60,348 nt of DNA. It comes from Nostoc sp. TH1S01 (GTDB lineage: Bacteria; Cyanobacteriota; Cyanobacteriia; Cyanobacteriales; Nostocaceae). This document shows, one piece after another, positions 3,715 through 57,502 of this stretch (positions are counted from its first letter, which is position 1; each line of letters starts with the position of its first letter). The stretch spans positions 1 through 60,348 of the forward strand of contig JAGKSW010000023.1 in assembly GCA_018993265.1 (NCBI GenBank), given 5' to 3'. The notes beneath the pieces are model-generated. The model was not told the origin of the DNA. It was given only the letters and a program-made list of their open reading frames with translations, and searched no databases. The position numbers were made by a program, and so were the translations under genes.

Positions 3715-6700
3715 TTAAATTCCTGTGGCGGTAAAAGCTGCCCAATAGAAAGGATTTTTAAAAGGATATGGGTTACGATTCTTAGCCTGTAATAAATATT
3801 CCTCAGCAAATATCTGCTCATCTTCTTCAAGTTGATCAAAAATTTCTGCAATTTGTGGCTGATATTTAACCAATAGTGTTTCAAATTCTTCTGTGGTTAA
3901 ATTGCGTAACCATTCCTGCGCTTGATTGAGTGCAAGGGAGACATTATTTAATGTTTGCAGATTTTCATGGAATTTCATCATCAAAAATGCTGTAGATAAG
4001 TCACTAACAGTCCACAAACTACTGACTACAGCTTTACTACCTGCTAATAGAAAACCGCTAGGTAAACCAATATATTCATCGCTGGTATTTAGAAAATCAA
4101 TCAATCCAGTTTCGCACGCGGAAAGGGTAACGAGGCGACAATTTCCTAATTTAAGAGCGAAGATTTTATCTAAGGTAAGACATTTTTCTAAATCGTGTGT
4201 TTCCCCTGCTCGTACATTTAGATAACGTTCGGAGTCTGGTTTTGTTGGTGTGTCTACGACTGGTGCATTTGCTAAAATTAAAGCTGATTTACTGGGATTT
4301 ATTAAGTTAAAATAGCCGTGACAGCTAAAGTGGGCGCAGTGATAAATGTTTAAGTCAGAATTATTAATTGCTGTGAGTGTTGCTGCTGTTTTTTTCAGGA
4401 CGTTGGCAGGATTAAAGTAGTTTTGAATAACTTGTACTTCTAAATCAGTGTAATTCAGGTCTTTTGTGGGATTTTGAATTGCAAATAGAGATTTAAAATC
4501 AGGGCGTTGTCGCTGTTGTACCTGTTGTAGTATTTGACAACTGGGTGCATAGCTCACACCACCAGCAAATAAATCCAGAAGACAACGCGAATTTTCAGAA
4601 TTTTGATTTACTGGAATTGCGTGAAGGGGGAATACATGCAGGAACTGATGGGGAATTAAGATGAGTTTATTGCAGTGCTTTGGTATCTGGGTTAATATTT
4701 CATCAATGTGCAGAATCGAGGCTAATTCTTGGAGTGATTCTCCTAAGCTATTAAGCCATTTGTCTTTTTTAGTGTAGTAATTCTCCAAATATTGAACTGC
4801 CCAATTCCTCAAAGCTTGTTGATCTTCTGGTTGGGATTGCCAAACATTTACCTCTCCTTGTTTTGTGACAATAAACGCCAGAGTTTTATCGTCGAGAATA
4901 TACCACTCGATAATGGCTGTATGCTCATCCAAAGAACCTTTGAAGGAGTCGAATTTGAAACCAACGGGTAAGTATTGGTTTTGCAATTCATTACGCTGGT
5001 TTTGCAACTGTTGTAGATGTTGTGCAAGGACTGTTGGATTTTTTGCTTTGCCATTTTGGATGTTATATTGTCCTACGGCTATTTCATCCCTGTATTTTTC
5101 TAATTGAGTGAATACTTTTGAAGGAAAGACGGTTTTAGAATAACGTTCGAGAATTTGTTCAACTAAATTGCGGGTTTTACTACGTTCAACATATTCAATT
5201 GCTTCCGTTTTCTTATCTAATTTCAGACAAACTTCTACCATGTAGCTATAAATTTGGTTAAACTCTTCCGCTTGTTTACGCTTGCTTTCTTCTCCAGATA
5301 CTATTTCTTCCCGTAAAGATTCTATAGTGGCAATGGCAGACTCAAAAGTATTGTAAGCTGTGGGAAACTGGTTTGCGTTTTGGTAAGCAATCCCCAGTAG
5401 CGACAAAGTATTTGCATAATTATGAGGCAAAGCTTCTTTGGTGTATACAGTTAAAGCCTCCTCACAAGCAGCGATCACTTTTTCGATGTTATTTGCCCTG
5501 TCTATTTCAATTTTCTCCCTGTAGACAGTAGCAAGATTAATTTGCGTTTGTGCCCAATTAAGAGGTAAATCTTTTTTGGTGCATACAGTTAAAGCCTCCT
5601 CACAAGCAGCGATCGCCTGTTCGATGTTATCTGCCCTGTCTCCTTCAATTCTATCCCTGTAGGCAATTGCGAGATTATTTTGCGTTCCTACCCAATTAAG
5701 AGGAAAATTTTTTTTAGTGCATACAGTTAAAACCTCCTTACAAGCAGCGATCGCCTGTTCGATGTTATCTGCCCTGTCTCCTTCAATTCTATCCCTGTAG
5801 GCAGCAGCGAGATTATTTTGCGTTCCTACCCAATTAAAAGGAAAATTTTCTTTAGTGTATACAGTTAAAGCCTCCTCACAAGCAGCGATCGCTTTTTCGA
5901 TGTTATCTGCCCTGTCTCCTTTAATTCTCTTCTTGTAAGCATTTGCGAGATTATTTTGCGTTTGTGCCCAATTAAGAGGTAAATCTTTTTTGGGGTATAC
6001 AGTTAAAGCCTCCTCACAAGCAGCGATCGCTTTTTCGATGTTATCTGCCCTGTCTCCTTTGATTCTATAGCTGTAGGCAATTGCGAGATTATTTTGTATT
6101 GCTGGCAAATTTTCTTTGGTGCATACAGTTAAAGCCTCCTCACAAGCAGTGATCGCTTTTTCGATGTTATCTGCCCTGTCTCCTTCAATTCTATCCGTGT
6201 AGGCAGCAGCGAGATTATTTTGCGTTACTACCCAATTAAGAGGAAAATTTTCTTTAGTGTATACACTTAAAGCCTCCTCACAAGCAGCGATCGCTTTTTC
6301 GATGTTATCTGCCCTGTCTCCTTTAATTCTATTGCTGTAGGCAGCAACGAGATTAGTTTGTATTGCTGCCCAATTAAGAGGCAAATCTTCTTTGGTGTGG
6401 ACTGTCAATGCGGCTTTATAACCAGTAATGGCAATTTCTATATTGGTGGCTTTGTCACCCAAGGGGAATTGCGCTATTAAACTGCTAAAATTACAAACGA
6501 CTTGTGCTAGTAGGTTTTTCACCTCATCTGCTGCCGCTTCCCCAGGTAGGTTTTTCATTTCATTTGCTGCCGTTTCCCCAAGTAGGTTTTTCATTTCATT
6601 TGCTGCCGTTTCCCCAAGTCTATTTGTCACCCAAAGGCGGAATTTTGTCCCAAAACGGTGGAATATTTCTGCAAACACACCATCAAGTTTGTCTGTATTT

Positions 6701-7053
6701 TTCGCCAGCAAAGGGTAAATTACCTGGGGATTACATTCACTGTCTGCGGTTGCTTGTATTACCTCCATCAAAAGGTAATATGCTTGTCTCTGCTCCTCAC
6801 TCAGAGATTGCAAATCTATTTGAGTATCTGGATTTAATTCTTCCCGTAGTTGCATTGCCATATTTTGCAACCTATTTGCTGTATTCTCATCTCCATGTTG
6901 AGAACACATCTGTGCTACTTCTTCTAACTTTTGCACCAAGCCAGCATCAAGTAAATCTTCGTGTGCGGCTAAAATCTTTGGTGCTTTACTACTGGGGGCA
7001 TCTAACAGACTGCGAATGAGGTTGAAATAAGCTTGCTGACGCTTTTCGTTCAT
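3715..7053 (-). CDS. TPR-repeat protein with C-terminal CHAT (caspase-like) domain
   Basis: This 1112-residue protein has a helical N-terminus (1-150), three 12-residue repeats of 'LLGETAANEMKN', eight tetratricopeptide-like repeats of about 46 residues (roughly 195-540) sharing 'GDRADNIEKAIAACEEALTV', a helical linker, and a CHAT domain (about 740-1112). CHAT domains are clan CD cysteine-protease folds; the expected catalytic pair is visible as His in 'AHFSCHG' (~909) and Cys in 'LSACETG' (~979), so it is probably active. The TPR part should bind a partner or substrate. No recognisable partner gene is adjacent. It starts at the ATG at 7053. The role (signalling protease, cell-death effector, or HetF-like developmental factor) cannot be decided from sequence alone. 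Confidence 0.85.
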   Translation of the reverse strand: MNEKRQQAYFNLIRSLLDAPSSKAPKILAAHEDLLDAGLVQKLEEVAQMCSQHGDENTANRLQNMAMQLREELNPDTQIDLQSLSEEQRQAYYLLMEVIQATADSECNPQVIYPLLAKNTDKLDGVFAEIFHRFGTKFRLWVTNRLGETAANEMKNLLGETAANEMKNLPGEAAADEVKNLLAQVVCNFSSLIAQFPLGDKATNIEIAITGYKAALTVHTKEDLPLNWAAIQTNLVAAYSNRIKGDRADNIEKAIAACEEALSVYTKENFPLNWVVTQNNLAAAYTDRIEGDRADNIEKAITACEEALTVCTKENLPAIQNNLAIAYSYRIKGDRADNIEKAIAACEEALTVYPKKDLPLNWAQTQNNLANAYKKRIKGDRADNIEKAIAACEEALTVYTKENFPFNWVGTQNNLAAAYRDRIEGDRADNIEQAIAACKEVLTVCTKKNFPLNWVGTQNNLAIAYRDRIEGDRADNIEQAIAACEEALTVCTKKDLPLNWAQTQINLATVYREKIEIDRANNIEKVIAACEEALTVYTKEALPHNYANTLSLLGIAYQNANQFPTAYNTFESAIATIESLREEIVSGEESKRKQAEEFNQIYSYMVEVCLKLDKKTEAIEYVERSKTRNLVEQILERYSKTVFPSKVFTQLEKYRDEIAVGQYNIQNGKAKNPTVLAQHLQQLQNQRNELQNQYLPVGFKFDSFKGSLDEHTAIIEWYILDDKTLAFIVTKQGEVNVWQSQPEDQQALRNWAVQYLENYYTKKDKWLNSLGESLQELASILHIDEILTQIPKHCNKLILIPHQFLHVFPLHAIPVNQNSENSRCLLDLFAGGVSYAPSCQILQQVQQRQRPDFKSLFAIQNPTKDLNYTDLEVQVIQNYFNPANVLKKTAATLTAINNSDLNIYHCAHFSCHGYFNLINPSKSALILANAPVVDTPTKPDSERYLNVRAGETHDLEKCLTLDKIFALKLGNCRLVTLSACETGLIDFLNTSDEYIGLPSGFLLAGSKAVVSSLWTVSDLSTAFLMMKFHENLQTLNNVSLALNQAQEWLRNLTTEEFETLLVKYQPQIAEIFDQLEEDEQIFAEEYLLQAKNRNPYPFKNPFYWAAFTATGI
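5440..6470 (-). repeat. Near-identical ~138-bp tandem repeats inside the TPR-CHAT gene
   Basis: About eight repeats encode the motif GDRADNIE(K/Q)AI..CEEAL. Most units are 46 codons; one has lost four codons around 'LPLNW'. Several units differ at only a few positions at DNA level and many carry an in-frame GCGATCGC. This points to recent unit duplication or gene conversion. Confidence 0.85.
6510..6617 (-). repeat. Three 36-bp direct repeats inside the TPR-CHAT gene
   Basis: Units start at 6510, 6546 and 6582, period 36 bp exactly, each encoding a version of (L/P)GE(T/A)AA(N/D)E(M/V)KNL. Units two and three are almost identical. They form a short repeated amphipathic helix before the TPR block. 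Confidence 0.85.
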
Positions 7054-37267: not shown

Positions 37268-37415
37268 TTTAAGGGGTTAGAGGCTAGAGGCTAGAGATTA
37301 GAGGTTAGAGATTAGAGTTTAGGGATGAGAGGTTAGAAAAGTAAAGTGGACAAAATTTGTCCAGCGACCTTATCCAGAGGACTTTCTAGTCCCTAGCCTC
37401 TAACCCCTAACCTCT
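37268..37415. repeat. CTAGAGGCTAGAGATTAG short tandem repeats
   Basis: Dense tandem copies of GGTTAGAG / GGCTAGAG in one orientation (37268-37335), then the inverted version 'CCTAGCCTCTAACCCCTAACC' shortened here to CCTAGCCTCTAACCCC (37390-37415). They can form a large hairpin between two minus-strand genes. Same family as the coding repeats at 20570-20660. Confidence 0.75.
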
Positions 37416-44309: not shown

Positions 44310-47300
44310 TCAGTTAGAAGCTGCGCTTTCTGCTACATTACCGATAAGTTGCTCTAGAGTGCGGAGTAATTCTTGCTCGTTGTAAGGTTTGGAAAAATAG
44401 GCTCTAGCACCTAGTTGCATCGCTAGTTGTCGGTGTTTATCGCTACTGCGCGAAGTTAGCATAGCAACGGGGATATTTTTTAAGCCACCATTGTTTTTGA
44501 CTTTGCCTAAAAATCCATAACCGTCAAGGCGAGGCATTTCTATATCACAAATGACGGCGGCAATTTGTAAGCCTGTTTCTAATTTTTCTAAAGCATCTTG
44601 ACCATCTTTTGCTTGTTCTACTTGATAGCCACCTTTTTCTAGAGTCAATGCTAAGAAACGGCGGACATTAATTGAGTCATCAATGATTAAAATTTTGCCT
44701 TTTGGCTTAGGAGGTAAGGCTGCTAGTTTTTCACTGTCAACGAACAAAAATGGTGTTTTTAATCTGACTGAGGGTAATTGGTTGTTTTTCGGGGTATTTT
44801 GATTGGTAGCAATCCAATAGAGTAATTCGTTAGCACTCACTAAGGCTACGACTCGACCATCACCGAGAATTGTGCAGTTACTAAAGCCTTCTGGTAGGGG
44901 TATATTGCCTTCAACTTGACGGATGGCTACTTCTTGTTCACCCCAGCAACGGTCTACTTGGATAGCGACGGTTTGATTGTTACCTTTAACTATTAAGACG
45001 CTGCTGGCGTTAATGGCGGCGGGAGTTTCCAGTTCGGGACTGTCGTAACGTGGACAATTAAATTGCAGATATTGTCCCAGGCGAATCAAAGGTACCATTG
45101 TGCCTTGCCAGTTTAGGACTTCGCTACCTCCCATTGAAATAATGCGATCGCTTTGGAGTAAAAATATTTCAGATACCACATCGGTGGGAAATGCCAGCAA
45201 TATTTTACCCGTTTCGATTAACAGCACTCTGGCCACAGAAAGAGTAAACGGTACTGATAAGGTGAAGGTCGTCCCAACGCCTGGTTCAGTATCGACTGTG
45301 ATATCACCGCGCACGAGTTTTAAATTGTTGCGAACCACATCCATACCTACGCCACGGCCAGATAAGGCGGTGACTTTTTCAGAGGTGCTGAACCCTGGTT
45401 CAAAAATTAGCGAAAGTAGTTCATCATCACTGGCACTTTCTAATAGCGAACTATCTAACCCCATTGCTAAGGCGCGAGAACGAATTTTTTCTAAAGAAAT
45501 TCCTCGTCCATCATCGCGCATGGTAATCATAGTCCGATTGCTGCGGTGAGTGGCTTGAATTTCGATTAATCCTTGTTCTGGTTTGCCTAAGCTGCGGCGC
45601 GTGGCTGGTTCTTCAATACCATGATCAAAAGCATTTCTTAATAAGTGCATTAAAGGGTCATTTAATGCTTCTAAAATGCTGCGTTCAATTAATGTATTAC
45701 CACCTTCAATTTTTAGCTGCACATTTTTGCCATACTCTACATTTAAGTCGCGGATGGCTCTTGGAAAACGCTCAACTAATTCGGAGATTGGCCGCATCCG
45801 CACTTGATTGAGTTTCGTTTGCAGTTGTTTGGATGTTTTGTTTAATTTGCGAGCGATTTGGTCAGCATCATCAACACTTAATTGAATATCTGTGGAGACT
45901 TCTTGCACCTGGACAATAGTTTCGACTACATCTTGCGATCGCAAATTAATTTCTTCGAGTGAGTGCTGAGTCACCGAAGTTTGCTCAACGGGGGGAACCC
46001 CCGCACGCAACTTCTCGCTGAGTGCTGTTAGCGGTAGCGGGGCGTTTAGCCCGTGCTGAGTTGAATAAGTTTCTTCTATTTCTGCTGAGTTCTCCAGCGA
46101 TACTCCAATTTCATGATTTTGCCGCGCATTTAAGGATAGCACTCTGTTATATGCCATCCGTAACTCTTGATTTTCTCTATCCAGAGTTTGCACTCTCTGG
46201 CTGAGATTTCGTGCGAGTTTACGTAATTTTTCTAATTGAGAATGTAGACCATTTCTTTGAACGATGAGTTCGCTAAACAAATCGTTAATTTGCTCTAGGT
46301 GTCTACTAGGAACTCGGACTGTATTTTCAGAATGTTCACGGTCTTTGCCATTAGTAATTGGTTCGTTTTTATGTTCAGCAATAATTGTGTTGATTTCTGG
46401 TAAGCTGACAGAATTAATGCTCTGATTAATCTCTGCTTCTAAAGGTATAAAATTACTAACAGATATGTCTTCTTCTTGCTTAACGATAGGTATTTCTACT
46501 AATTCTATTTCTTGGTTAACACCGTTATCTGTAGCGAGGAATTGTGCAATGGCTTCTGCGGTTGACAGTGGCTCAATTTGGTTATAAGTGGTTGGAGAAT
46601 TAACTAAATTCAGTTCAATTGCTCTCGGTAAACTATCGAGTTGATTGGTTAAGACTAAAGCTTGCGCTCGCCGCCATGTTTGCAATGCTATCTGAGCAAT
46701 TTCCGAGACGCGTTCTGGTGCAGCAGATTCTATAGTTTGTTTAATAGAATCACACAGTTGGGTAAATGCTGACAATTGCAACATTTCTCCTAAACCGCCT
46801 AATTCCGCCGCCATAATAGCAACTTCTTCTTGCAAACAAGGTTTTTGACTATCAGCCAACACAGATTCTAAACGTTGCAAACAACCTTCTACTTCGGTTT
46901 CAAATAATAAAGGAATAATACTTTGCCCATCTTCTGGGGACAACATGGTTGTCACATCTTCCGGAGTGGGATCACCTAAACGTTGATGTAGCTCGTCAAA
47001 AACGGGGTAACAAAAACTAGTTAACCATTGCTCTTCTATGACACTTTGTGTAGATAGCAAATCCACAATCTGACGCATCCAATCAATTGCCGAAAGCAGT
47101 AAACTTTGCAATTGTTGGTCAATTTCTAGAGAAGTTTTTCTAGTTTTGAGAACCTTAAAAGCATCTTCTAAACGGTGTGCTAAATCACTTAGCACCCGAA
47201 ATCCCATCATCGCTGCGCCACCTTTAATTGAGTGGGCAGCGCGGAGTGCGCCATTAATTTTTTCTAAATCTATGCGATGGCTGGTATCGATTTCCAGCAA

Positions 47301-47381
47301 GACTCCCTCTAAAGTATTGAGGTAATCTGTCGCTTCTTCCAGAAATTGCATCTGGATTTCTAATTCTTTATCTGGTGACAT
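44310..47381 (-). CDS. hmpE: CheA-type hybrid histidine kinase of a motility chemosensory system
   Basis: A 1023-residue kinase. Hpt domain with 'RAAHSIKGGAAMMG' (His ~50), a second helical Hpt-like region, a dimerisation helix bundle (~345-405), the CheA HATPase core with 'HLLRNAFDHGIEEPA' and 'GRGISLEKIR', 'SGRGVGMDVV', a CheW-like domain (~690-840) and a C-terminal receiver (~890-1010, 'ILIIDDSINVRR', Asp in 'VICDIEMPR'). It should form arrays with the MCP and CheW encoded upstream. The order PatA-CheY-CheW-MCP-CheA matches the Nostoc hmp and Synechocystis pil operons for type IV pilus motility; which paralog this is cannot be fixed. Linker 439-472 is repeat-derived. Confidence 0.88.
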   Translation of the reverse strand: MSPDKELEIQMQFLEEATDYLNTLEGVLLEIDTSHRIDLEKINGALRAAHSIKGGAAMMGFRVLSDLAHRLEDAFKVLKTRKTSLEIDQQLQSLLLSAIDWMRQIVDLLSTQSVIEEQWLTSFCYPVFDELHQRLGDPTPEDVTTMLSPEDGQSIIPLLFETEVEGCLQRLESVLADSQKPCLQEEVAIMAAELGGLGEMLQLSAFTQLCDSIKQTIESAAPERVSEIAQIALQTWRRAQALVLTNQLDSLPRAIELNLVNSPTTYNQIEPLSTAEAIAQFLATDNGVNQEIELVEIPIVKQEEDISVSNFIPLEAEINQSINSVSLPEINTIIAEHKNEPITNGKDREHSENTVRVPSRHLEQINDLFSELIVQRNGLHSQLEKLRKLARNLSQRVQTLDRENQELRMAYNRVLSLNARQNHEIGVSLENSAEIEETYSTQHGLNAPLPLTALSEKLRAGVPPVEQTSVTQHSLEEINLRSQDVVETIVQVQEVSTDIQLSVDDADQIARKLNKTSKQLQTKLNQVRMRPISELVERFPRAIRDLNVEYGKNVQLKIEGGNTLIERSILEALNDPLMHLLRNAFDHGIEEPATRRSLGKPEQGLIEIQATHRSNRTMITMRDDGRGISLEKIRSRALAMGLDSSLLESASDDELLSLIFEPGFSTSEKVTALSGRGVGMDVVRNNLKLVRGDITVDTEPGVGTTFTLSVPFTLSVARVLLIETGKILLAFPTDVVSEIFLLQSDRIISMGGSEVLNWQGTMVPLIRLGQYLQFNCPRYDSPELETPAAINASSVLIVKGNNQTVAIQVDRCWGEQEVAIRQVEGNIPLPEGFSNCTILGDGRVVALVSANELLYWIATNQNTPKNNQLPSVRLKTPFLFVDSEKLAALPPKPKGKILIIDDSINVRRFLALTLEKGGYQVEQAKDGQDALEKLETGLQIAAVICDIEMPRLDGYGFLGKVKNNGGLKNIPVAMLTSRSSDKHRQLAMQLGARAYFSKPYNEQELLRTLEQLIGNVAESAASN
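45963..46065 (-). repeat. Dispersed repeat translated within CheA linker
   Basis: Two copies of GAGTGCTGAGT / GAGTGCTGTTAG flank 'CGGGGGGAACCCCCGCACG' and 'GCGGTAGCGGGGCGTTTAGC', which I know as typical intergenic repeat words of Nostocales. Here they are in frame and encode 'LSEKLRAGVPPVEQTS' and neighbours between the second Hpt-like region and the kinase core. Confidence 0.65.
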
Positions 47382-47493
47382 TGTTTTTAATAATTAGTTA
47401 TTGGTCATTAGTCACTTGTACTGAGCGAAGCCGAAGTATTGGTTATTTGTCATTAGTCAACACAGGACAAAGGACAAATGACAAGTGACAAAA
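47382..47493. repeat. GTCATTAGTCA / GACAAATGAC repeats between MCP and CheA genes
   Basis: The 112-bp spacer is almost entirely short repeats: 'TTATTGGTCATTAGTCA', 'CTTGTACTGAGCGAAGCC', a second 'TTATTTGTCATTAGTCA' and the inverse 'GGACAAATGACAAGTGAC'. It can fold as a hairpin and could lower the level of the CheA part of the transcript. Confidence 0.65.
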
Positions 47494-49788
47494 TCAATTA
47501 ACTTTAAAAGTCTCAACAGTCTCTTGCAACTTATGAGAAATATCGACAGTTTGTTTAAGAGATTGGCAAACTGAGCTAGAAGAATCTCTTGTGCGTTGAG
47601 AAATCGCTGCGATTTCTTTCATTAACAAGCTAACAGTTTGCGATGTTTGCACTTGGGATGCGGTTGCAGAAGAAATAGACTGTACTAAAGAATCAATTTG
47701 ACGGGAAACATCGAAAATCTGTCCGAGATTTTGTTTGGCTTCTTCAACTACCCGCGCACCTTCACCAACTTGGGTAGTACCAATTTCTATCGCCTGAACA
47801 ACGGCGCTAGTTTCCCGTTGAATATTCTCGACAATTTGTTCGATTTCTTGGGTGGCTGCGGCGCTACGGGCTGCTAACTCACCTACTTCTTCGGCTACCA
47901 CAGCAAAACCTTGTCCTTCTTCACCAGCACGCGCGGCTTCGATACCTGCGTTGATGGCGAGTAAGTTGGTTTGCATAGCAATTTGATTAATTAAAGAGAC
48001 GACGCGAGAAATTTGTTGGGAAGACTCGCCTAAACGTTTAACTTTCTGGGCTGTTTCGCCGACAGTTTCTCTCAGAAACAGAATGTTCTGCACTGTTAAA
48101 TACATCGCTTCTTCACTCTTAGAAGCGTTTTGCGCGGCGTTATTCGCCACAGTGGCAGCTTGTTCGGCACTATTCGCAACCGCTTGCATGGAATTAGTCA
48201 TGTTATCAACAGCGTCCAAAGCGCGGTTAATTTCCTCGGCTTGCACCAGTGCTTCGTCTGCAAGTTGACGAATAGCTGTTTCGTTAGAGTTGATAGCGGT
48301 ATTGACTTGGGTGGCTGCTTGTTTAACTTGAGTGACAATATCCCGCAAACTTTCGACAATAGAGTTGAAAAAGTCAGCAACAGTGCCAATTTCGCCGTCT
48401 GTCACATCAGCGCGGACTGTTAAATCACCTCTAGCTGCACCTTCTATGTCATTGAGTAGTTCTAAGAGTTGCAGTTGTAAGGCTTCGTGTGTTGGGCGTT
48501 CATCTAGGGAATTTGACTGAATAATAGTTTTATTATGGGCAATTTCGGCTTTTTCGTTGACTAAAACCTGTAATTGAGCCGCCATATTATCAATATTGGC
48601 ACTCAATGCGCCTATCTCGTCTTCTCTTTCGGATGCGAGGCGAGTGTTAAGTTCACCTTGTCCGAGTTTAGCGACAGCAACTGTAGCATTGATGATTGGC
48701 TGTGTAGTACGTTTGGCTAACCAAGCTGCGATCGCTGCTACAATCAGTCCAATTAATCCTGTACCAATAGTTATAATCCACAACAATTGTTGTTGCGTGC
48801 CATATAAAATTGCCGCATCCGTAGTGAGTAAGACTTGCCAATTTAAATCAGATAAACCTGCAATTTTTGGTGCTGGGACGTAACTAATTAATTGCCGTTT
48901 ACGATGGCTTTGAGGAACGGTTGTGAGGGTAGCAATATTATTTGTGGCGAGAATTTTTGCTAAACCAGGGTACTCAGATTTGGCTTCTTTGCCTAATAAT
49001 TCTTGGCGTGAACTCAAGAAAACTTTGCCAGAATTATCTAGCACAGCATATTGATAACCATTAACAGCATAGTTTTTGATTCTTGCTTCTAAAGCTTTGG
49101 TCGGTAGACTGATTCTAACTACGCCTAAAGTTTTACCTGTGATTGTATTTTTAATCGGTGCAGCTAGATAAATATCAGTAGATTTTTTTGGGTGACTAAT
49201 AACCGCCGCATCTTTTTGCAGCGTTGCTTGAAAATAACTATTGTCTTTTTGGTTATCTACATGTTCCCCTGAAGATTGCACAATCACATTACCGTCAGTA
49301 TCGAAGACCGCAATATTACTATAATTTTGGTAATTTGTGAGAATTTTATCAAGTAATACTTGCTTTTCTTGAATATTAGTATTGCTGGCGAGGTTGCCAT
49401 TGGCAAATAAAGGCGAGTTTGCCAGTATTTGAATATCTCCATACCTATCGGACATAAAGCGGTTAATTTTATCAGTTAAATCAACAGCTTCAGCCGTTTG
49501 AGATTGGATAATTTGCTTGGTGAGGGATTTACTAGTTAAATGGTAGGCGATCGCACCCATGACTAAAGCTGGTATGGTACTGATAGCGATCGCTAAAATT
49601 GTTGCTTTTGTTTCTAAACTCAGCCGTTTTAAATACCCACCTAAATTAGGCTGCATTTCACTATCAGACTTGGCAGCCTTCCCACTATTATTTAGTTTGA
49701 TATTACTCTGAGAAAGTTTGGTAGATGCAATCAAAGAAGCACTATTTTTTCCATCACCAGTCTTAGCCGTGTCAGTTTTATTAAACAT
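47494..49788 (-). CDS. hmpD: Methyl-accepting chemotaxis protein with Cache sensor
   Basis: About 764 residues. A basic Ser/Asn-rich cytoplasmic N-terminus, TM1 (~55-77), an extracytoplasmic double-Cache-like sensor (~80-325, '[17 protein letters not shown]', '[13 protein letters not shown]', '[14 protein letters not shown]'), TM2 (~330-352, '[18 protein letters not shown]'), HAMP, and a signalling hairpin with the tip motif '[19 protein letters not shown]'. The tip differs from enteric MCPs as usual in PilJ/HmpD types. I prefer the ATG at 49788: AGGAG lies 9 bases before it, while the ATG at 49806 has none. Ligand unknown. It is the receptor of the five-gene operon. Confidence 0.9.
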
Positions 49789-49848
49789 CCTGCAATTCTC
49801 CTGCATTGGTAAACAAAAAATATTTAAAGTTATCTAATTACAAATAAC

Positions 49849-50346
49849 TTAATCACTGCGGAGAATAGAAGATTGCACAATTGCTTGTGCATCTAATACC
49901 AGCAATATTTCTTCTTGTTGCACAACACATCCACGTAAATAAGGAACTAAACTAGATGCTACTTGTCCAATTGGCGAATGAATATCATCAACTAGAATTT
50001 TAGTTGTCCCTTTAATTTCTTGCACAACTAAACCTAAAAGCAGTGATTCTACTTTAATCACGATGGCATTATACTGCTGCCTTCTTGTATCGATAGCTTC
50101 TAAATTGAGCATTCGGGGTAAATCAATGGCCCAAATTATGCGACTCCGCCAATTCATTAAGCCTAATATACATCCAGGCATATTCGGCATAGGAGTTACC
50201 GCTTCCACTGGCAAAATCACAGCCTCTTGAGTGTGATTCATTGCCAACATCGCCGCGGTTTGTTGATTTAGCTGAAACTTTAAATAACCGTCTCCTAATT
50301 TATTTTGAAGAGGTTTTTGAGCAAGTATAGTGTTGGAATTATTCAT
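49849..50346 (-). CDS. hmpC: CheW-like coupling protein
   Basis: A 165-residue CheW-domain protein that links the MCP to the CheA kinase. Seen are 'YLKFQLNQQTAAML', 'LPVEAVTPMPNMPGCILGLM' (the GxxNxRG region reads 'GLMNWRSRIIWAIDLPRML') and 'LGLVVQEIKGT'. It is 60 bases upstream of the MCP gene and 4 bases downstream of the CheY gene, so tightly operonic. Start ATG 50346. Confidence 0.88.
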   Translation of the reverse strand: MNNSNTILAQKPLQNKLGDGYLKFQLNQQTAAMLAMNHTQEAVILPVEAVTPMPNMPGCILGLMNWRSRIIWAIDLPRMLNLEAIDTRRQQYNAIVIKVESLLLGLVVQEIKGTTKILVDDIHSPIGQVASSLVPYLRGCVVQQEEILLVLDAQAIVQSSILRSD

Positions 50347-50350
50347 CGGT

Positions 50351-50728
50351 TTAAATCACCACTGATTTAATAGCTCTTAATAACTGTTCTCTGGTGTATG
50401 GCTTAGTAAGATAAACATCGGCTCCTTGTTTCATAGCCCACAATCTATCTATTTCCAGATTTTTTGAGCTACAAATAACTATTGGTAACTTTTGTGTTAC
50501 TGGATGTTTTTTTAATGAACGGCATAATTCAAAACCGCTCATTCCCGGCATGACAACATCAGTCACAATTGCATCGGGATTTTGCAAAATAGCTTGCTCT
50601 AACGCTTCTTTAGCACCAGTTGCCTTAATGACGTTATAGCCACTTTCTTTGAGATAATGGCTCATCAGTTCTAATTCGCTGGGCGAATCTTCAACAATTA
50701 AAATTGTGCCAACCAAAGTTAAACTCAC
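50351..50728 (-). CDS. hmpB: CheY-like single-domain response regulator
   Basis: A 125-residue receiver with 'LIVEDSPSE' at the start, phospho-Asp in 'AIVTDVVMPGMSG' (~57), 'ICSSKN' and Lys in 'VYLTKPYTR'. No output domain. It should be phosphorylated by the operon's CheA and act on the pilus motor or on polarity, as known for the PilH/HmpB type. Intergenic distance to the CheW gene is 4 bases, to the PatA-type gene 32 bases. Confidence 0.88.
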   Translation of the reverse strand: MSLTLVGTILIVEDSPSELELMSHYLKESGYNVIKATGAKEALEQAILQNPDAIVTDVVMPGMSGFELCRSLKKHPVTQKLPIVICSSKNLEIDRLWAMKQGADVYLTKPYTREQLLRAIKSVVI

Positions 50729-50760
50729 TCCTAATTCTCCTTATTGTAGGAAAGACAGTA

Positions 50761-51813
50761 TTATTTAATATGTTTAAACACAATTTTCAGTAATTCTGAT
50801 TGCGTAAAAGGCTTAGTCAAATAGCCAGATGATCTGACCATTTTTGCTTTAGCTCTATCAATAAATCCTGTCCTGCCAGTTACCATAATGATGGGTGTAT
50901 TTTTAAATGCTGAATGCCTGCGTAATAATGAACAAAGTTCATAACCATCTAAATTAGGCATTTCGACATCTAATAAAATCAAGTCAGGCTTACTGCGGAG
51001 AATCTGCATTAATGCCTTAACAGGATCATTAATTGTCACTACCGAAAAGGTATTTTCATCTAAAAATAGCTTGATAGAATTTAATACAGTTTGGCTATCA
51101 TCAATGCAGGCAACTGTATACAAGCTATTTCTTTCTAACTGCTTGATATTTTTATGATTACTATTTTCTCCAGAAGCAAAATTGCTATTTTTGGTTAAAG
51201 CCTTGTTATTAGACAATGAATTAATTGCAGGTAAAACTGGCGAACCCTTCGCAACATTCACTGGTTGCTGAACGTGGTAACGATGGCGTAATTGTCTTTG
51301 ACAATATTCCACTAGTAAACGCAAATCTAACTGACAGAATTTTGGTAATTCATTCCAGGAACTGTCAGGATAAAATTCGTAGGTTCCTTCTTTTAAAATT
51401 AAAAATGACTCCAGCACCTCTTTAGCTAATTCGTCTACTAAAGTAGCTGCTTGCATAGAACTGATGTAACGTTGCTCTACCAACCAACAAATTGCTTGGT
51501 AATCTGGATATGGTATTGATAAATTTTCATTGGCTGGTTCAAACATCAGTCGCATCTGTACGCGAGTAGCACTATTGAGAGTCGGAATATTCAGACTCAA
51601 GCGCCGCAACTGATTATCAAGTCGCTCAAACACCTTATCAGATGAAGAAGCATAAGTAAGTTTACCTTCGTCTAGATATATTGACCATGAGGTTGAACCA
51701 GCAAATACACGTAAGCACCCCGTAGCTCGCCGACTAGTTAGCTGTGCTAATAAAGATAGTGGATGTAGTTTTTGGATTAACCGATGACTACTCATAGGAG
51801 TTAGATTTTGCAT
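50761..51813 (-). CDS. hmpA: PatA-type response regulator (PATAN domain plus receiver)
   Basis: A 350-residue protein: a DUF4388/PATAN-like N-terminus (~10-120, 'LSLLAQLTSRRATGCLRVFAG' in part: LSLLAQLTSRRATGCLRV), a helical middle, and a C-terminal receiver (~228-350) with 'VACIDDSQTV', phospho-Asp in 'LILLDVEMPNLDG' (~278) and Lys in 'YLTKPFT'. PatA-type regulators act in Nostocales heterocyst patterning and, as PilG/HmpA, in type IV pilus motility. It is the first gene of the operon, and the ~800 bases upstream hold its promoter and then the small-RNA array. Start ATG 51813. Confidence 0.88.
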   Translation of the reverse strand: MQNLTPMSSHRLIQKLHPLSLLAQLTSRRATGCLRVFAGSTSWSIYLDEGKLTYASSSDKVFERLDNQLRRLSLNIPTLNSATRVQMRLMFEPANENLSIPYPDYQAICWLVEQRYISSMQAATLVDELAKEVLESFLILKEGTYEFYPDSSWNELPKFCQLDLRLLVEYCQRQLRHRYHVQQPVNVAKGSPVLPAINSLSNNKALTKNSNFASGENSNHKNIKQLERNSLYTVACIDDSQTVLNSIKLFLDENTFSVVTINDPVKALMQILRSKPDLILLDVEMPNLDGYELCSLLRRHSAFKNTPIIMVTGRTGFIDRAKAKMVRSSGYLTKPFTQSELLKIVFKHIK

Positions 51814-52620
51814 TTACTTCAGCTAAATTGAATACTTGTCATCTCAATTCGTACCTTGTTGAGTTACCATTCCCAGCAAAACTTAGTTTTTGCGTAAAAA
51901 ATACTACAAATACTTCAGATTAAGTTTGGGTTAGCGTAACTTTATGCTATGGATTTTGGCGTTTACATCTTATTTATATAAGTAATTAAAAGTTAAATTA
52001 ATTACTTGGATTGAAATTGATTAGCATAAGGATAAATAACTTCACAAATAGTAAAAATTAAAACGATCCCCTTGCCTGTCATCAACTTTTAGATAAGCAA
52101 ATCTGAAAGAATACTGCTAAATTAGCAAAATCTAACTAGATTTTTCTCAGTAGTTACACTTAAAAAAAATCAGCTTTGTCCAAACCAGATATAATGTAAT
52201 CTTTGGTTAAGTAAGATTACTGGAAATTTACATAAATTGATTAGATGCAATTAGTTCTAGCCTCTGTTTGTGCAATTGTCGATATCATTCCCACGGAAAA
52301 CGCAAACATGATTCTTCTTAATAAAACTTCAACTTATTTGCTCAAGGCATAGTAATATGAAGCTACATTTAAGTACTTCGAGAGTTGTTCGTAAATTCAC
52401 TTAGTATTACTTAGAGATAATTTTTGGGCAAGTTGTTTAAGTATAATTAATCTAGGTAGATGAAGGCTGGAGGCGATCGCTAGTTTTATCTAGGTAGTTA
52501 TCATCTAAAGTACACCCAAAAAACCTGTTTAAATTCTTTTGCACAGTTGTTGAGCTATATTTGCATTCACTTGCTCAACAGATAGGATAAGATTTAGTAA
52601 TAATGGAGCATGTTAAAAAT
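51814..52620. other. ~800-bp leader of the chemotaxis operon
   Basis: AT-rich non-coding DNA with a single GCGATCGC near 52477. No ORF and no repeat units; the small-RNA array starts just beyond. The long distance suggests a long 5' leader or complex promoter. No operator can be placed with confidence. Confidence 0.45.
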
Positions 52621-52623
52621 TGA

Positions 52624-52731
52624 CAAAAAAAGGCTTGGATCAGCCAAGCCTTTGTGTATACCAAGCATTTACTACACCAAGCTTAATTTATCCCAGGTCA
52701 TCCTTGAGTTCATCTTCCTAAAGGATGTATA
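52624..52731 (-). ncRNA. Array small RNA, unit A
   Basis: Minus strand: 5' motif TACATCCTTTAGGAAGATG (52729-52711), about 59 nt of body including GGGATAAATTAAGCTTGG and 'TGCTTGGTATACAC', then stem AGGCTTGG/CCAAGCCT (52651-52644 with 52638-52631), loop 5 nt, and a U-tract from A's at 52624-52631. The small reading frame after the motif ATG (14 codons) is not kept in other units, so it is not a peptide gene. Confidence 0.65.
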
Positions 52732-52854
52732 CAAATGATTTAATAACTGATAATAACAAAGTCACAATTGCTATTTTAATCTTTAAATAACCTCTTAATA
52801 AGATTAATATATGTCCAAAATTCTCAAGCTAAAATGTCTGTAACTTTTTATTTA

Positions 52855-52963
52855 CAAAAAAGGTTTGGTCGTTAGCCAAACCTTAAGAATTGCTGTGCTT
52901 AACAACGTACTAAATTAATTTATTACTTTTTAGTCATATAATTCATCTATCTTGAGGATGTAG
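52855..52963 (-). ncRNA. Array small RNA, unit B
   Basis: Minus strand: 5' motif CTACATCCTCAAGATAGATG (52963-52944), 59 nt body, stem AAGGTTTGG/CCAAACCTT (52884-52876 with 52868-52860) and a U-tract. Relative to unit A, GC pairs in the stem have become AU or shifted together, which keeps pairing. Confidence 0.6.
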
Positions 52964-53131
52964 CTAGATATCCTACAAATTGATATTAACGCCTGGTAAA
53001 AATAGACGATTTTTCTTAGAAAAAGAAAAGCACAAAATGACTGCAAAATCCATGAAAAAAATGTCCAAAAGATGAATAAATTCTGCAAGCATTGCCATCT
53101 AGATAATAGATTTACTGTCTGAAAAAACATG

Positions 53132-53232
53132 AAAAAGGCTTGGATTATTGTCCAAGCCCACATATACCAGGTGTTTACCATATCTAGATAATTTATCTCC
53201 TAATAAGATGTACTACATCTTCCTTTCAGTTG
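53132..53232 (-). ncRNA. Array small RNA, unit C
   Basis: Minus strand: 'CTGAAAGGAAGATG' ending at 53216, body with GGAGATAAATTATCTAG and 'CACCTGGTATATGTGG' (both resembling unit A), about 57 nt to the stem GGCTTGGA/TCCAAGCC (53158-53151 with 53144-53137) and a five-base U-tract. A palindrome AGATGTAGTACATCT overlaps the 5' motif. Confidence 0.6.
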
Positions 53233-53428
53233 TGTACAAAAATTTTAAACTATGATATGTGCCATTCATCAGTAAATATCAAAATTAAATTGATAATTTC
53301 AAGTAATTTAGCAGCTTGATAATCAAATTATTCTATCTTTAGTAATAAGCAAGATTAAATTTTAGTATAAAAATATTTGCAATTCCAATATATTAGATTT
53401 TAGTCAAGATTTATTTTTTATTTTTAAG

Positions 53429-53535
53429 AAAAAACCCTGGAACTAAAGCCAGGGTGAATACACGTTTTTCAGGCATTATGAGACAAAATATTAGCCTTGG
53501 AAATAATATATTTCACCTATCTACCGAAGGATAGA
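53429..53535 (-). ncRNA. Array small RNA, unit D
   Basis: Minus strand: 5' motif CTATCCTTCGGTAGATAGG (53534-53516), which itself forms a CTATC/GATAG hairpin, a 60-nt body, the stem ACCCTGG/CCAGGGT (53455-53449 with 53440-53434) and a U-tract from A's at 53429-53434. The stem sequence differs fully from unit A yet is still perfectly paired. Confidence 0.6.
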
Positions 53536-53599
53536 AAAAATTCAGCTTACCATCACGAGCATCATTGATCATCAGATGCTAATAATTTACATTTCAACA

Positions 53600-53702
53600 A
53601 AGAGACCCAGCTTATAGCTAGGTCTACATATACCAAGAGTTTACCACCTATGAATAGTTTAGGTATTCTACTACTTTAGGTCATCTACCAAAAGGCTGTA
53701 GC
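53600..53702 (-). ncRNA. Array small RNA, unit E
   Basis: Minus strand: 5' motif TACAGCCTTTTGGTAGATGA (53700-53681), 55-nt body with 'GGTAAACTCTTGGTATATG' close to units A and C, and a 9-bp stem with one C-A mismatch (53625-53603). The following 'CTCTTTGTTG' is a weak U-tract, so termination may be less efficient. A TATACT -10-like word lies about 20 bases before the motif. Confidence 0.55.
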
Positions 53703-54063
53703 TAAATTCATAAGTATATGATGGTTTACTATCATACTTAGTTTAATTACAAAAGATAGAGTATTCATTAAAACATTAAATATAATACAATGAGGCAACA
53801 CACAGATATATTAAATTCTTTAATTATGAATCAATATAGTCACCTGATACACATGACTTATGGTTAATGATGACACTGTAATATTCATAAGTTTGGTATT
53901 CATTTTTTTACTTAAACTGATATACTCTAAAACACAGATAGCTTGAACTAAACATCAAGCACCAGTAAAGTGTATTATATTTAGCTATTAATGAGAGGAT
54001 TTACCTTTAAAGGGCAAGGTATGCTTGAACAGGTAATTAATTTTTCACAACACTATAAATTAT

Positions 54064-54171
54064 AAAAAAGGTTTAGCACTGAGCTAAACCTCTGTAGAAA
54101 GCAGTTATTTGACACACCAGAATAAATTTAGACTGAGTTTATTAGTAGGGCATCTTCCTATAGTATGTAGT
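54064..54171 (-). ncRNA. Array small RNA, unit F
   Basis: Minus strand: 5' motif CTACATACTATAGGAAGATG (54170-54151), 59-nt body with 'TTCTGGTGTGTCAAATAAC', stem AGGTTTAG/CTAAACCT (54091-54084 with 54076-54069) and a six-base U-tract. It is the unit nearest to putA, 170 bases beyond the putA terminator. Confidence 0.6.
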
Positions 54172-54344
54172 CAAAAAGTTACTAGTGTGATAAAAATTTC
54201 TCCAGAGAAAACACATCTAAATATTGATGAATTAGTAGTAAGAGATAGTAAAGTACCATAAATAAACAAAATGGATAGAGCAAGTGCGATCGCTAATTTC
54301 TGGAAGTTCCTTATAGCAGAGTGCTGAGTATGAACTTAACAATA

Positions 54345-54377
54345 AAAAATCAGGTGAATATTACACACCTGATTTTT
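54345..54377. terminator. putA terminator hairpin
   Basis: A perfect 12-bp stem AAAAATCAGGTG (54345-54356) with CACCTGATTTTT (54366-54377), loop 9 nt, about 50 bases after the putA stop, with A/T runs on both sides. It works as an intrinsic terminator in either direction and separates putA from the small-RNA array. Confidence 0.8.
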
Positions 54378-54428
54378 ATGTTTTAAAACTCACGCAGAGG
54401 CGAAAAGGCGCGGAGAGTTTTTACGAGA

Positions 54429-57400
54429 TTACTCTGCGCCTTCAATGGGTGCAAAGCCCTGGCGTTGAATATTTTCTGTAATTGTGCGCGGTTCGAGGAA
54501 CTGTAGCAAGTAGTCAGGGCCGCCTGCTTTAGAACCTACGCCAGAAAGTTTGAAGCCGCCAAAGGGTTGCCGAGCTACGATCGCCCCTGTAATATTCCTA
54601 TTAATGTACAAGTTGCCGACTTCAAATTCTTCTTGGGCTTGCTGAATATGCGAAGGTGTACGCGAATACAACCCGCCAGTCAAGGCAAAATCTGTATTGT
54701 TGGCAACTTTTAATGCTTCAGCAAAATCCTTCACCTTAATTACAGCTAACACAGGGCCAAATATTTCTTGTTGGGCAATGATGCCATCGGCTGGCACTTC
54801 ACTGAAGATAACAGGGCCGATAAAATAACCTTGTTCTGGTGCGGCTAACTCTAGGGCTAACTTTGCTTCAGCCTTACCCTTTTCAATATACTCCCGGATG
54901 CGATCGCGGGCGTTAGCATCAATCACAGGCCCTACCTGCGTACTCGGTAACTCAGCCTCCCCAATATTCAAAGATTTTGTCGCCTCAACCAACCTCGCAA
55001 CAAAAGTATCGTAGATTGATTCGACAACCACCACCCGCGAACAAGCCGAGCATTTCTGCCCACTGTAACCAAAGGCTGACTGCACAACGCCCACAACCGC
55101 CTGATCTAAATCAGCACTTTCATCCACAATGATGGCATTCTTACCACCCATCTCTGCAATAACTCGCTTCATGTGCCTTTGCATAGGCTTCAGAGTAGCC
55201 GCCTCTGAATAAATGCGACAGCCCACTTCTTGAGAACCAGTAAAAGCAATTACATGAGTATCAGGGTGACTCACCAAATAAGCCCCAACTTGCGAACCCT
55301 TACCAGGGACGTATTGAAAAACACCTTGAGGAATTCCCGCCTCAACCAAAATCTCTGTGAGTTTGGCAGTAATAATCGAAGATGTTTCCGCAGGTTTCAG
55401 CAGCGTACAATTACCCGTAACCAAAGCAGCCACAGTCATTCCACAAGCGATCGCCAACGGGAAATTCCAAGGCGAAATTACCACCGCCACTCCTTTAGCT
55501 CGGTAGATATAACGGTTTGTTTCTCCAGGTACGTCATAATTAACACCTTGCTCCAACCGTTCCATCTCATCAGCATAGTAACGGCAAAAATCTATCGCCT
55601 CCGAAACCTCTGCGTCAGCCTCCTTAACAGGCTTACCCACCTCCAAAACTATCCAAGCCGACATCTCTGCACGGCGTTGTTCCAGCAAATCCGCCGCCTT
55701 ACGTAAAATATCAGCCCGTTGCTTCACAGGCGTTTTCCGCCACCCAGGAAACGCCGCCTTCGCCGCTTCCATCGCCTGTTGGGCCTGTTCCACACTAATC
55801 AATCCAACCTTACCAATCACCTCACTGTAATTAGAAGGATTAACCGAATCAATCACCTCCAGAGTATTCACATACTCCCCATTAATCAAAGGCAAATAAC
55901 TCTTGCCAAACTCCCGACGCACACCCTCAAAAGCCTGCGCCGCCTTTCGTCTTCTTTCCTCCTCAGCATAATCACTATCCGCCGCACCGAGGAATGATGG
56001 ATTATTAACCGCAGATGGACGCGGATGTACGCGGATGTCATCTGCGTCCGTCTGCGTTAATCTGCGGTTATTTTCTTCTTTGAATATGGGAGGTGCAAGC
56101 AACTCCTCCACAGGCCGATTCTCCAAATTCTGCCGCAAGAACGAACTATTAGCCGTATTCTCCAACAACCGCCGAATTAGATACGCCATCCCCGGTAACA
56201 ATTCCCCGTAAGGACAATAAACCCTAACTCGATAACCCTTATCAACCAAAGCCTTAGCAAGTTTATCCCCCATCCCGTACAAAACTTGCATTTCAAAACA
56301 ACGGCGGGGAACCTGCAAACTTTCAGCTATAGCAATTGCCCGTGCTTGCGATCGCACGTTATGACTACCAATGGCAGCATATACATATTGATGATTTTCC
56401 AGCAACAACTGGGTTATCGCTTCAAAGTTCGCATCTGTCGCCACTTTGTCATTGTAAACAGGCTGCGGCCAATGCTTCTGGGCTGCTTTGATAGTTTCCT
56501 GATCCCAATACGCACCCTTCACCAACCGAATAGTTAGCGGATATCCGCGCTGCTTCAACCAAGCAATCACATTTCTGGCATCTTGCTCACTATCACGCAA
56601 GTATGCTTGGATAGTGATCCCTATATCTGTGCGTTGGCGAAACTCATCTTCTAACAATAACTTTTGCAAAATATTTAGAGTTAAATCTTTATACGCATAC
56701 TGTTCCATATCAAAATGGATAGCTGCGCCTAACTCTTTGGCATAACGTAATAAATTACGAATGCGATCGCTAACTCTTTTTTCACTACCCTCAGCATCTA
56801 AAGGGTCAAATTGCGAATAAAACGCCGTTAATTTCACAGAAACTTGGACTTTTGGTAGTCTTTCACCGTCTGCTTCATCAATAGCCGGAACATGATTCCA
56901 ATTTTTAGATGCTTCTATTAATTGGGCAATTAATTCTTGATAGCGTTCTAAATAAGACTGCGCTTCGACTTCTGTAATTACAGCTTCACCTAGTAAATCA
57001 ATAGTGAACGCCATTTTTTCTTTCCGCAGGCGTTCAACTGTTTTGATGACTTGTTTAATATTTTCCCCAGAAATATATTTATGCGCTAAAGTTTCCACCG
57101 CAGTCGAGACAGTTGTTGCAGCCACTTGTCCCGGCATGGAATCGGGGTTAGCAAAATTTAACATCCCCTTCAAAGCGGCTGGCAATTCTACTGTTTCATC
57201 CCCTAAATATTCTTGTAAATGGGCGGCAATTTCTGGTTTACTGCGTAACGCTGGCAGAGTATCAATAAAGCGGAAAAGTTGCACCCGCAAACCCGGATTA
57301 CTCATTGCCCAAGCTAGTAATTTATCATCCCAGCGCATTTGGTCGCGCAAGGAAGCTAAAAACGAGCGATTTTCTTGGGTAGCTGTTAAGAGTTGTTTAG

Positions 57401-57452
57401 CAATTTCCTGGGTTTTAGGTTCGTAGATGCTTGTTTGTACTTGTAATACCAC
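54429..57452 (-). CDS. putA: Bifunctional proline dehydrogenase / L-glutamate-gamma-semialdehyde dehydrogenase
   Basis: A 1007-residue enzyme that oxidises proline to glutamate in two steps. Residues ~130-430 are the FAD proline dehydrogenase barrel ('KLTAFYSQFDPLD', 'IHFDMEQYAYKDLTL', 'RLVKGAYWDQE', 'EMQVLYGMGD', 'YCPYGELLPGMAYLIRRL'); ~510-985 are the NAD aldehyde dehydrogenase with 'VISPWNFPLAI', 'FTGSQEVG', Glu in 'AEMGGKNAIIV' (~768) and catalytic Cys in 'GQKCSACSR' (~800). No DNA-binding N-terminus as in enteric PutA. Linker 460-482 is repeat-derived. The start is GTG 57452 with AGGAG 10 bases upstream. In Nostocales this pathway feeds on arginine/cyanophycin-derived proline. Confidence 0.94.
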   Translation of the reverse strand: MVLQVQTSIYEPKTQEIAKQLLTATQENRSFLASLRDQMRWDDKLLAWAMSNPGLRVQLFRFIDTLPALRSKPEIAAHLQEYLGDETVELPAALKGMLNFANPDSMPGQVAATTVSTAVETLAHKYISGENIKQVIKTVERLRKEKMAFTIDLLGEAVITEVEAQSYLERYQELIAQLIEASKNWNHVPAIDEADGERLPKVQVSVKLTAFYSQFDPLDAEGSEKRVSDRIRNLLRYAKELGAAIHFDMEQYAYKDLTLNILQKLLLEDEFRQRTDIGITIQAYLRDSEQDARNVIAWLKQRGYPLTIRLVKGAYWDQETIKAAQKHWPQPVYNDKVATDANFEAITQLLLENHQYVYAAIGSHNVRSQARAIAIAESLQVPRRCFEMQVLYGMGDKLAKALVDKGYRVRVYCPYGELLPGMAYLIRRLLENTANSSFLRQNLENRPVEELLAPPIFKEENNRRLTQTDADDIRVHPRPSAVNNPSFLGAADSDYAEEERRRKAAQAFEGVRREFGKSYLPLINGEYVNTLEVIDSVNPSNYSEVIGKVGLISVEQAQQAMEAAKAAFPGWRKTPVKQRADILRKAADLLEQRRAEMSAWIVLEVGKPVKEADAEVSEAIDFCRYYADEMERLEQGVNYDVPGETNRYIYRAKGVAVVISPWNFPLAIACGMTVAALVTGNCTLLKPAETSSIITAKLTEILVEAGIPQGVFQYVPGKGSQVGAYLVSHPDTHVIAFTGSQEVGCRIYSEAATLKPMQRHMKRVIAEMGGKNAIIVDESADLDQAVVGVVQSAFGYSGQKCSACSRVVVVESIYDTFVARLVEATKSLNIGEAELPSTQVGPVIDANARDRIREYIEKGKAEAKLALELAAPEQGYFIGPVIFSEVPADGIIAQQEIFGPVLAVIKVKDFAEALKVANNTDFALTGGLYSRTPSHIQQAQEEFEVGNLYINRNITGAIVARQPFGGFKLSGVGSKAGGPDYLLQFLEPRTITENIQRQGFAPIEGAE
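56006..56070 (-). repeat. Inverted-repeat element translated between PutA domains
   Basis: Outer arms TAACCGCAGAT (56006-56016) / ATCTGCGGTTA (56060-56070) are perfect; inner arms GGACGCGGATG (56017-56027) / CATCTGCGTCC (56039-56049) have one mismatch. 'CGCGGATG' also repeats directly. In frame it encodes the segment around 'RRLTQTDADDIRVHPRPSAV', between the two enzymatic domains. Confidence 0.75.
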
Positions 57453-57471
57453 AGATAGTAATCTCCTTAAC

Positions 57472-57502
57472 AGTTATCAGTTATCAGTTATCAGTTATCA
57501 GT
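57472..57502. repeat. Heptamer tandem repeat (AGTTATC)4 in the putA leader
   Basis: Four perfect AGTTATC copies at 57472-57499 plus a partial AGT, immediately 5' of the putA ribosome site (AAGGAG at about 57463-57468). Such heptanucleotide arrays are known in filamentous cyanobacteria. Confidence 0.85.

Follow-up and report, generated by a model that had tools for sequence, protein, structure and literature searches.

The window analysed here is a 60,348-nt stretch of Nostoc sp. TH1S01 DNA in which six units occupy positions 54192-52624 on the minus strand, between putA and a chemotaxis operon, and are read in the order F, E, D, C, B, A (Table 1). An earlier sequence-only reading had proposed six such units, each with a hairpin and U-tract, and all were found at the positions that it gave, with a 3′ hairpin and a T-run in every unit, the latter weak in E. 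Its common 5′ motif stood in part: A, E and F fit, B is looser, and only weak versions occur in C (ACAACTGAAAGGAAGATG) and D (TTCTATCCTTCGGTAGATAG). A search of the window for CTACATCCTTTAGGAAGATG with up to three mismatches had A, E and F as its sole hits, and no hit arose in 100 shuffles. A single open reading frame of at least 80 aa, 83 aa long and overlapping unit C, lies within the array.

Table 1. Positions of the array features and the neighbouring genes in the window; promoters and RNAs are predictions.
Feature	Position	Strand	Details
putA (proline/P5C dehydrogenase), upstream	54429..57452	-	neighbour of array
Unit F promoter (predicted)	54125..54192	-	TATCA box 54192-54188; palindrome/GATG 54168-54151; -10 TAAATT 54130-54125
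Unit F predicted sRNA, ~54 nt	54064..54117	-	core GTGTGTCAAATAACTGCTTTCTA + terminator; +1 estimated from -10 box, about ±3 nt
Unit E promoter (predicted)	53656..53723	-	CATCA box; -10 TAAACT
Unit E predicted sRNA, ~50 nt	53599..53648	-	core GGTAAACTCTTGGTATAT + weak terminator
Unit D upstream motif and -10	53488..53536	-	TAATAT (53493-53488, by eye); off family geometry
Unit D predicted sRNA	53427..53480	-	ends by eye; core CATAATGCCTGAAAAACGTGTAT + terminator
Unit C promoter (predicted)	53190..53257	-	TATCA 53257-53253; -10 TAAATT 53195-53190
Unit C predicted sRNA, ~51 nt	53132..53182	-	core TATGGTAAACACCTGGTATAT + terminator
Unit B promoter (predicted)	52917..52985	-	TATCA 52985-52981; -10 TAAATT 52922-52917
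Unit B predicted sRNA, ~54 nt	52856..52909	-	core TACGTTGTTAAGCACAGCAATT + terminator
Unit A promoter (predicted)	52685..52752	-	TATCA 52752-52748; -10 TAAATT 52690-52685
Unit A predicted sRNA, ~53 nt	52625..52677	-	core GTGTAGTAAATGCTTGGTATAC + terminator
Chemotaxis operon, downstream	44310..51813	-	DUF4388-receiver protein, receiver protein, CheW, MCP, CheA; Pfam

Family range, unit order and neighbourhood

Units were collected from the window and 53 further stretches (L101-L153, of which L143 held none) with an iterated profile, which gave 201 hits including short opposite-strand terminator hits. Most counts below refer to the 161 units with at least 40 bits and enough flank, 11 of which are copies of the Rfam family RF02596 (cyano_het_sRNA). 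A family model, R1, was built from 137 diverse units. Searching relatives with R1 gave matches in 136/217 genomes of the window's own family (31/56 genera); in a class-wide sample 16/291 genomes matched, every one in that family. Both searches used strict filters, by which weak matches are lost. The 1.6-kb array DNA itself matched 36/100 related genomes, namely 36/60 of the own family and 0/40 of other families, and in more distant genomes single units were covered.

The paralogy that the sequence-only reading had proposed was borne out for A, B, C, E and F, which form one family by profile. A leave-genus-out profile of 108 units, from which the window and ten same-genus loci were excluded, detected A (90.5 bits), F (75.6), C (73.5), B (65.7) and E (52.2), together with three weak terminator hits on the plus strand of the window; it gave no hit at E ≤ 1 in ten shuffles or in the reversed window. 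Unit D was missed by this profile and reached 16 bits with R1, a model that holds the other five window units. Six loci of the genus, counting the window, share its own core and its TAATAT box, and D is conserved within the genus only.

The units fall into groups by their cores, and among classified units the order F-D-E-C-B-A-X held in 243/243 ordered pairs from 31 arrays; the count covers arrays of at least three units with unclassified units omitted, the rank order was written after the tree had been inspected, and same-genus arrays are not independent. Set and order are kept across many genera despite a changed neighbourhood. The chemotaxis operon, which the sequence-only reading had placed next to the array, does adjoin it in the window but is not a conserved context: it was seen beside the array in 6/52 other stretches with units, all six from the same genus (some stretches being short), and different genes flank the array in other genera. 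Because it so rarely adjoins the array, this operon says little about array function, and we regard it as a neighbour outside the system. Among the array loci compared, putA adjoins the array in the window only. Synteny with putA was dropped as a route to further arrays, as neither a motif scan nor the family profile found an array at 80 named putA loci (L002-L081), 70 of which had at least 4 kb downstream.

Two observations concern the surroundings. Where the window has putA, the eight same-genus stretches L101-L108 carry, upstream of the array, small genes that resemble phage-tail or contractile-injection parts in a reading of their proteins. L139, which comes from a genome of 3.8 Mb, has no array but two family units placed back to back, one per strand, at 6381 (-) and 6447 (+).

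Predicted promoters and RNAs

When the 161 units were anchored on GATG, conservation was found at TATCA, TTTG and YACATCC..GATG and ceased further upstream, an edge that is weak by itself since the unit-selecting profile starts 3-5 nt before TATCA. An independent check comes from RF02596, whose model excludes the upstream promoter region: all nine loci found by that model alone have both TATCA and AGATG, and the whole RF02596 set has them in 24/27 and 27/27 loci, respectively. TATCA lies 34 nt before the first G of the GATG motif and is followed, in sequence, by TTTG, YACATCC, the palindrome CCTATAGG and GGAAGATG. A TANNNT box stands 28 nt downstream of the motif's first G in 152/161 units, in line with the earlier proposal that each unit has its own promoter. 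It reads TAAATT in 124/161 units, and the common variants (TACATT, TAAAGT, TAAACT and TAGATT) change at positions 3 and 5 only. The distance from GATG to this box is 20 nt in 133 and 21 nt in 20 of the 161 units. Mean pairwise identity within six groups was 0.84-0.96 for GGAAGATG, 0.44-0.58 for the spacer, 0.81-0.97 for the -10 box and 0.60-0.99 for the core, whose onset lies ~6-7 nt past the -10 box.

This layout appears to be that of an activator-dependent promoter, with a -10 box and a palindrome centred near -42; if ATGAAC is the -35 region, the spacer between -10 and -35 would be 17 nt. The 20-nt "5′ motif" is accordingly most likely promoter DNA, comprising the palindrome ~42 nt upstream and the -35 region. 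Three observations count against this reading: the GATG block is conserved on a par with the -10 box, unit D departs from the family promoter geometry, and TAAATA stands in place of TANNNT at 5/27 RF02596 loci. The sequence-only reading had taken GGAAGAUG as a shared seed. It lies upstream of the -10 box and is probably not transcribed; since the -10 box, the poorly conserved spacer and the start of RF02596 all lie downstream of it, we do not retain it as a seed.

The RNAs are therefore predicted to be ~50-54 nt long rather than 100-109 nt, with estimates of 54 nt for F, 50 for E, 51 for C, 54 for B and 53 for A; the earlier figure of 100-109 nt holds as DNA spacing but is probably not the length of the RNA. 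In consensus folding the terminator helix was the sole conserved structure. Its stems, compared over 137 family units, have 98.5% of their cells paired and 104 cells changed on both sides, so the compensatory changes noticed earlier within the window extend through the family. Against 500 shuffles, covariation as high was reached in 0/500 for four of five measures and in 2/500 for the fifth. Whole-strand folding of units of 107-120 nt gave z-scores of only -1.0 to -1.9. The cores, ~20-25 nt, are private to each unit and near-invariant among orthologues.

An alternative, which we consider unlikely, is that RNAs of ~93-110 nt start at GGAAGATG from a promoter of the form TATCA-17-YACATC, carry GGAAGAUG as a seed and are perhaps cut at UAAAUUA to a 55-nt form. 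TATCA and YACATC are indeed conserved at a fixed separation of 17 nt, and GATG is nearly invariant (the 0.84-0.96 identity within groups given above). YACATC, however, makes a poor -10 box, and the 20 nt past GATG, fixed in length and barely conserved in sequence, look like promoter spacing rather than RNA. The RF02596 model, moreover, begins past TAAATT: its first letters, GGGAUG, fall exactly at the core, directly past the -10 box. A start at GGAAGATG with YACATC as the -10 box was our own first reading and was dropped once RF02596 had been found.

Relation to RF02596, NsiR1 and NsiR3

Comparison with Rfam, as the sequence-only reading had advised, gave no gathering-level match in the window. 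At a permissive threshold RF02596 matched F (27.8 bits), B (27.6) and A (23.6), with C, D and E unlisted; these window units lie below the cut-off of 35.7 bits. Three array-type units of relatives pass it (38.0, 36.8 and 36.8 bits), so that the border of RF02596 is blurred. Within the window's genome, a contig other than that of the window (G000:C125) has a full-length match of 81.2 bits. RF02596 exceeds the cut-off in 21/60 genomes, each of these belonging to the window's family. RF02596 has the same promoter block as the array units, which lies outside Rfam's model, as well as the same -10 position, place of the core and terminator. It differs in having one strong copy per genome among those searched and the core GGGATGTTGTTATGCACTGGATTTA; its core GGGAUGUUGUUAUGCACUGGAUUUAU is found in no array unit, each of which has another core.

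A second difference lies further upstream. The pattern GTAN8TAC, which we take to be the NtcA consensus, occurs at about -94 and at a fixed distance in 14/27 RF02596 loci (shuffles: mean 0.5, maximum 3); loci listed with this observation include L166, L160-L163 and L203. In the array units it is not above chance: 4/161 units have it 30-110 nt upstream of G0, two of these being RF02596 copies, and shuffles gave a mean of 3.5. The box at RF02596 loci and its absence from the array suggest that RF02596, as the single-copy member, may respond to nitrogen status and the array to the shared activator alone. A further relative in this genome (G000:C209:115398-115535; L175 ~1501-1612) has the core GATGTCTGCTTAAGCACTAGGACAT and no clear TATCA, and its group forms the last array unit in some genera.

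From the first G to the end of the hairpin, the RF02596 RNA measures 53 nt in 25/27 loci. For Nostoc PCC 7120, Brenes-Alvarez et al. (2016, PMC4734099) describe 4547237r, an RNA of 51 nt to the hairpin end; its 5′ end was mapped, and the RNA was confirmed by primer extension and Northern blots. Homologues are given there for 12/27 heterocystous genomes, exclusively in such genomes, and levels of the RNA seem to rise when nitrogen is lacking for long and when cultures are dense (PMC4734099). RF02596 is probably 4547237r, judged from length and distribution.

In organisation, the closest parallel is NsiR1, described as an array of ~60-nt sRNAs in which every copy has its own promoter and the targets differ in part, comprising 12 copies, 7 of them identical, with DIF1 promoters, upstream of hetF (PMC9045159). 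Both arrays consist of tandem copies on one strand with individual promoters, predicted in the present case, but the cores of the present array differ between groups and its order is conserved. With putA and the chemotaxis operon as flanks instead of hetF, the locus is not that of NsiR1, as had been noted from the sequence. TCCGGA, presumably the DIF1 letters, was found in 0/161 units and nowhere at 52600-54450 of the window. None of the CHAT-gene stretches examined could be recognised as the NsiR1 locus; the window itself has a large CHAT-domain gene at 3715-7053, with about seven internal 138-bp repeats at 5418-6398. NsiR3 reportedly regulates proline oxidase in Nostoc PCC 7120 and, like the array, is an sRNA of heterocystous cyanobacteria; putA happens to flank the present array. 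PMC3610870 gives NsiR3 a length of ~115 nt and its Nodularia homologue an NtcA site near -41, and in both respects it differs from the array units, which show no such box above chance.

In the titles and abstracts covered, an array of this kind was described for the group only in work on NsiR1. Judged by model score and core for RF02596, and by DIF1 promoter and location for NsiR1, the window units are members of neither; their layout resembles that of NsiR1, and their promoter and terminator link them to RF02596. The array would represent a well-conserved sRNA set for which we found no description, a new, ordered and apparently multi-output relative of RF02596 that is organised like NsiR1. 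RF02596, for which the literature covered gave no function, would then stand as the single-copy member beside a larger system related to it.

Proposed mechanism and target searches

We consider it likely that the array encodes separately transcribed, trans-acting sRNAs of ~50-54 nt with a shared type of activator-dependent promoter and different guide cores. Each unit would be transcribed from its own promoter, composed of TATCA at ~-74, TTTG at ~-55, the palindrome CATCCTATAGGAAGATG near -42 and TANNNT at -10. As the palindrome would occupy the place of a good -35 box, transcription is proposed to depend on one common, putative activator, and the units would consequently be expressed together. 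The RNA would begin with an unstructured core of ~20-25 nt that differs between units and end in an intrinsic terminator, and the most likely role of the cores would be base pairing with mRNAs that differ from unit to unit, so that one signal could reach several target sets. The array copies would thus have the switch in common but not the guide, and the array makes it possible to test directly whether sets of co-regulated sRNAs are maintained by bacteria as functional modules.

Base pairing is the least supported step, because the target searches found no target: the 60 genomes searched yielded no perfect and conserved complement to a core. An exact 15-mer of the RF02596 core occurred in 21/60 genomes, in each as the RNA itself, and a single genome had one further hit. 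For the A core, a 16-mer with at most one mismatch gave 15 scattered hits outside units in the 60 genomes versus 11 for the reversed control. A duplex of the E core with putA (-24.8 kcal/mol) was rejected, as it is not kept in relatives (median -16.0, n = 80). The A core has its best pairing at the putA start in 55/80 loci, with a median of -18.9 over 40 loci that none of 60 shuffled cores reached. We do not claim this pairing, the gene having been chosen by its place, the loci being non-independent and seven cores having been tried.

The invariance of ~20 nt exceeds the usual seed length and could reflect protein binding. It is improbable, in our judgement, that the RNAs are decoys which capture an RNA-binding protein or another RNA and do not pair with mRNAs, although the near-invariance, the partial similarity of the A, C and E cores and the failure to find a complementary target speak for it. 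By eye, one binding site could hardly accommodate cores as unlike as those of F, B, D and RF02596. Among 36 core-core duplexes only X-X (-24.6 kcal/mol) went beyond the lowest of 300 shuffles, and B-F and A-A fell within the lowest 5%.

That the units are genes for small peptides is very unlikely. Possible start codons are present in several cores (for example ATG CTT GGT in A, or ATG GTA AAC in both C and E), but the variable positions past the invariant part have no three-base rhythm: phase sums were 0.50/0.69/0.53 for F, 0.60/0.44/0.60 for A and 1.05/1.24/1.19 for E, and the uneven sums of B (0.73/0.93/0.03) and C (0.69/0.88/1.12) come from few columns. Least credible of all is that the array is a mobile or degenerate repeat of DNA that has no role as RNA. 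The varying neighbourhood might speak for this reading, but conserved order, private cores and covarying terminators are at odds with it. The check for a mobile-repeat match found none in phage and plasmid records, and no R1 unit lies in the nine viral stretches whose sequence includes a core in common with A or C.

Returning to the separately transcribed sRNAs, we regard as possible, though on balance doubtful, a stronger version in which one activator governs about six sRNAs in fixed order with non-overlapping guide cores, their single-copy relatives and little else, forming an RNA regulon. If this were true, Nostocaceae would own a multi-output RNA switch. When this genome was searched for the palindrome with up to three mismatches, 12 places matched, versus 7 for the reversed control; the search does not pick up units B-E. 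Of the 12, four belong to RNAs of the family, namely A, F and two that occur as single copies. At the other eight the rest of the promoter is absent by eye.

Two short repeats were also noted in the window, TTATCAG in five tandem copies at 57467-57502, just upstream of the putA start, and the heptamer GGTTAGA in nine copies at 37275-37337.
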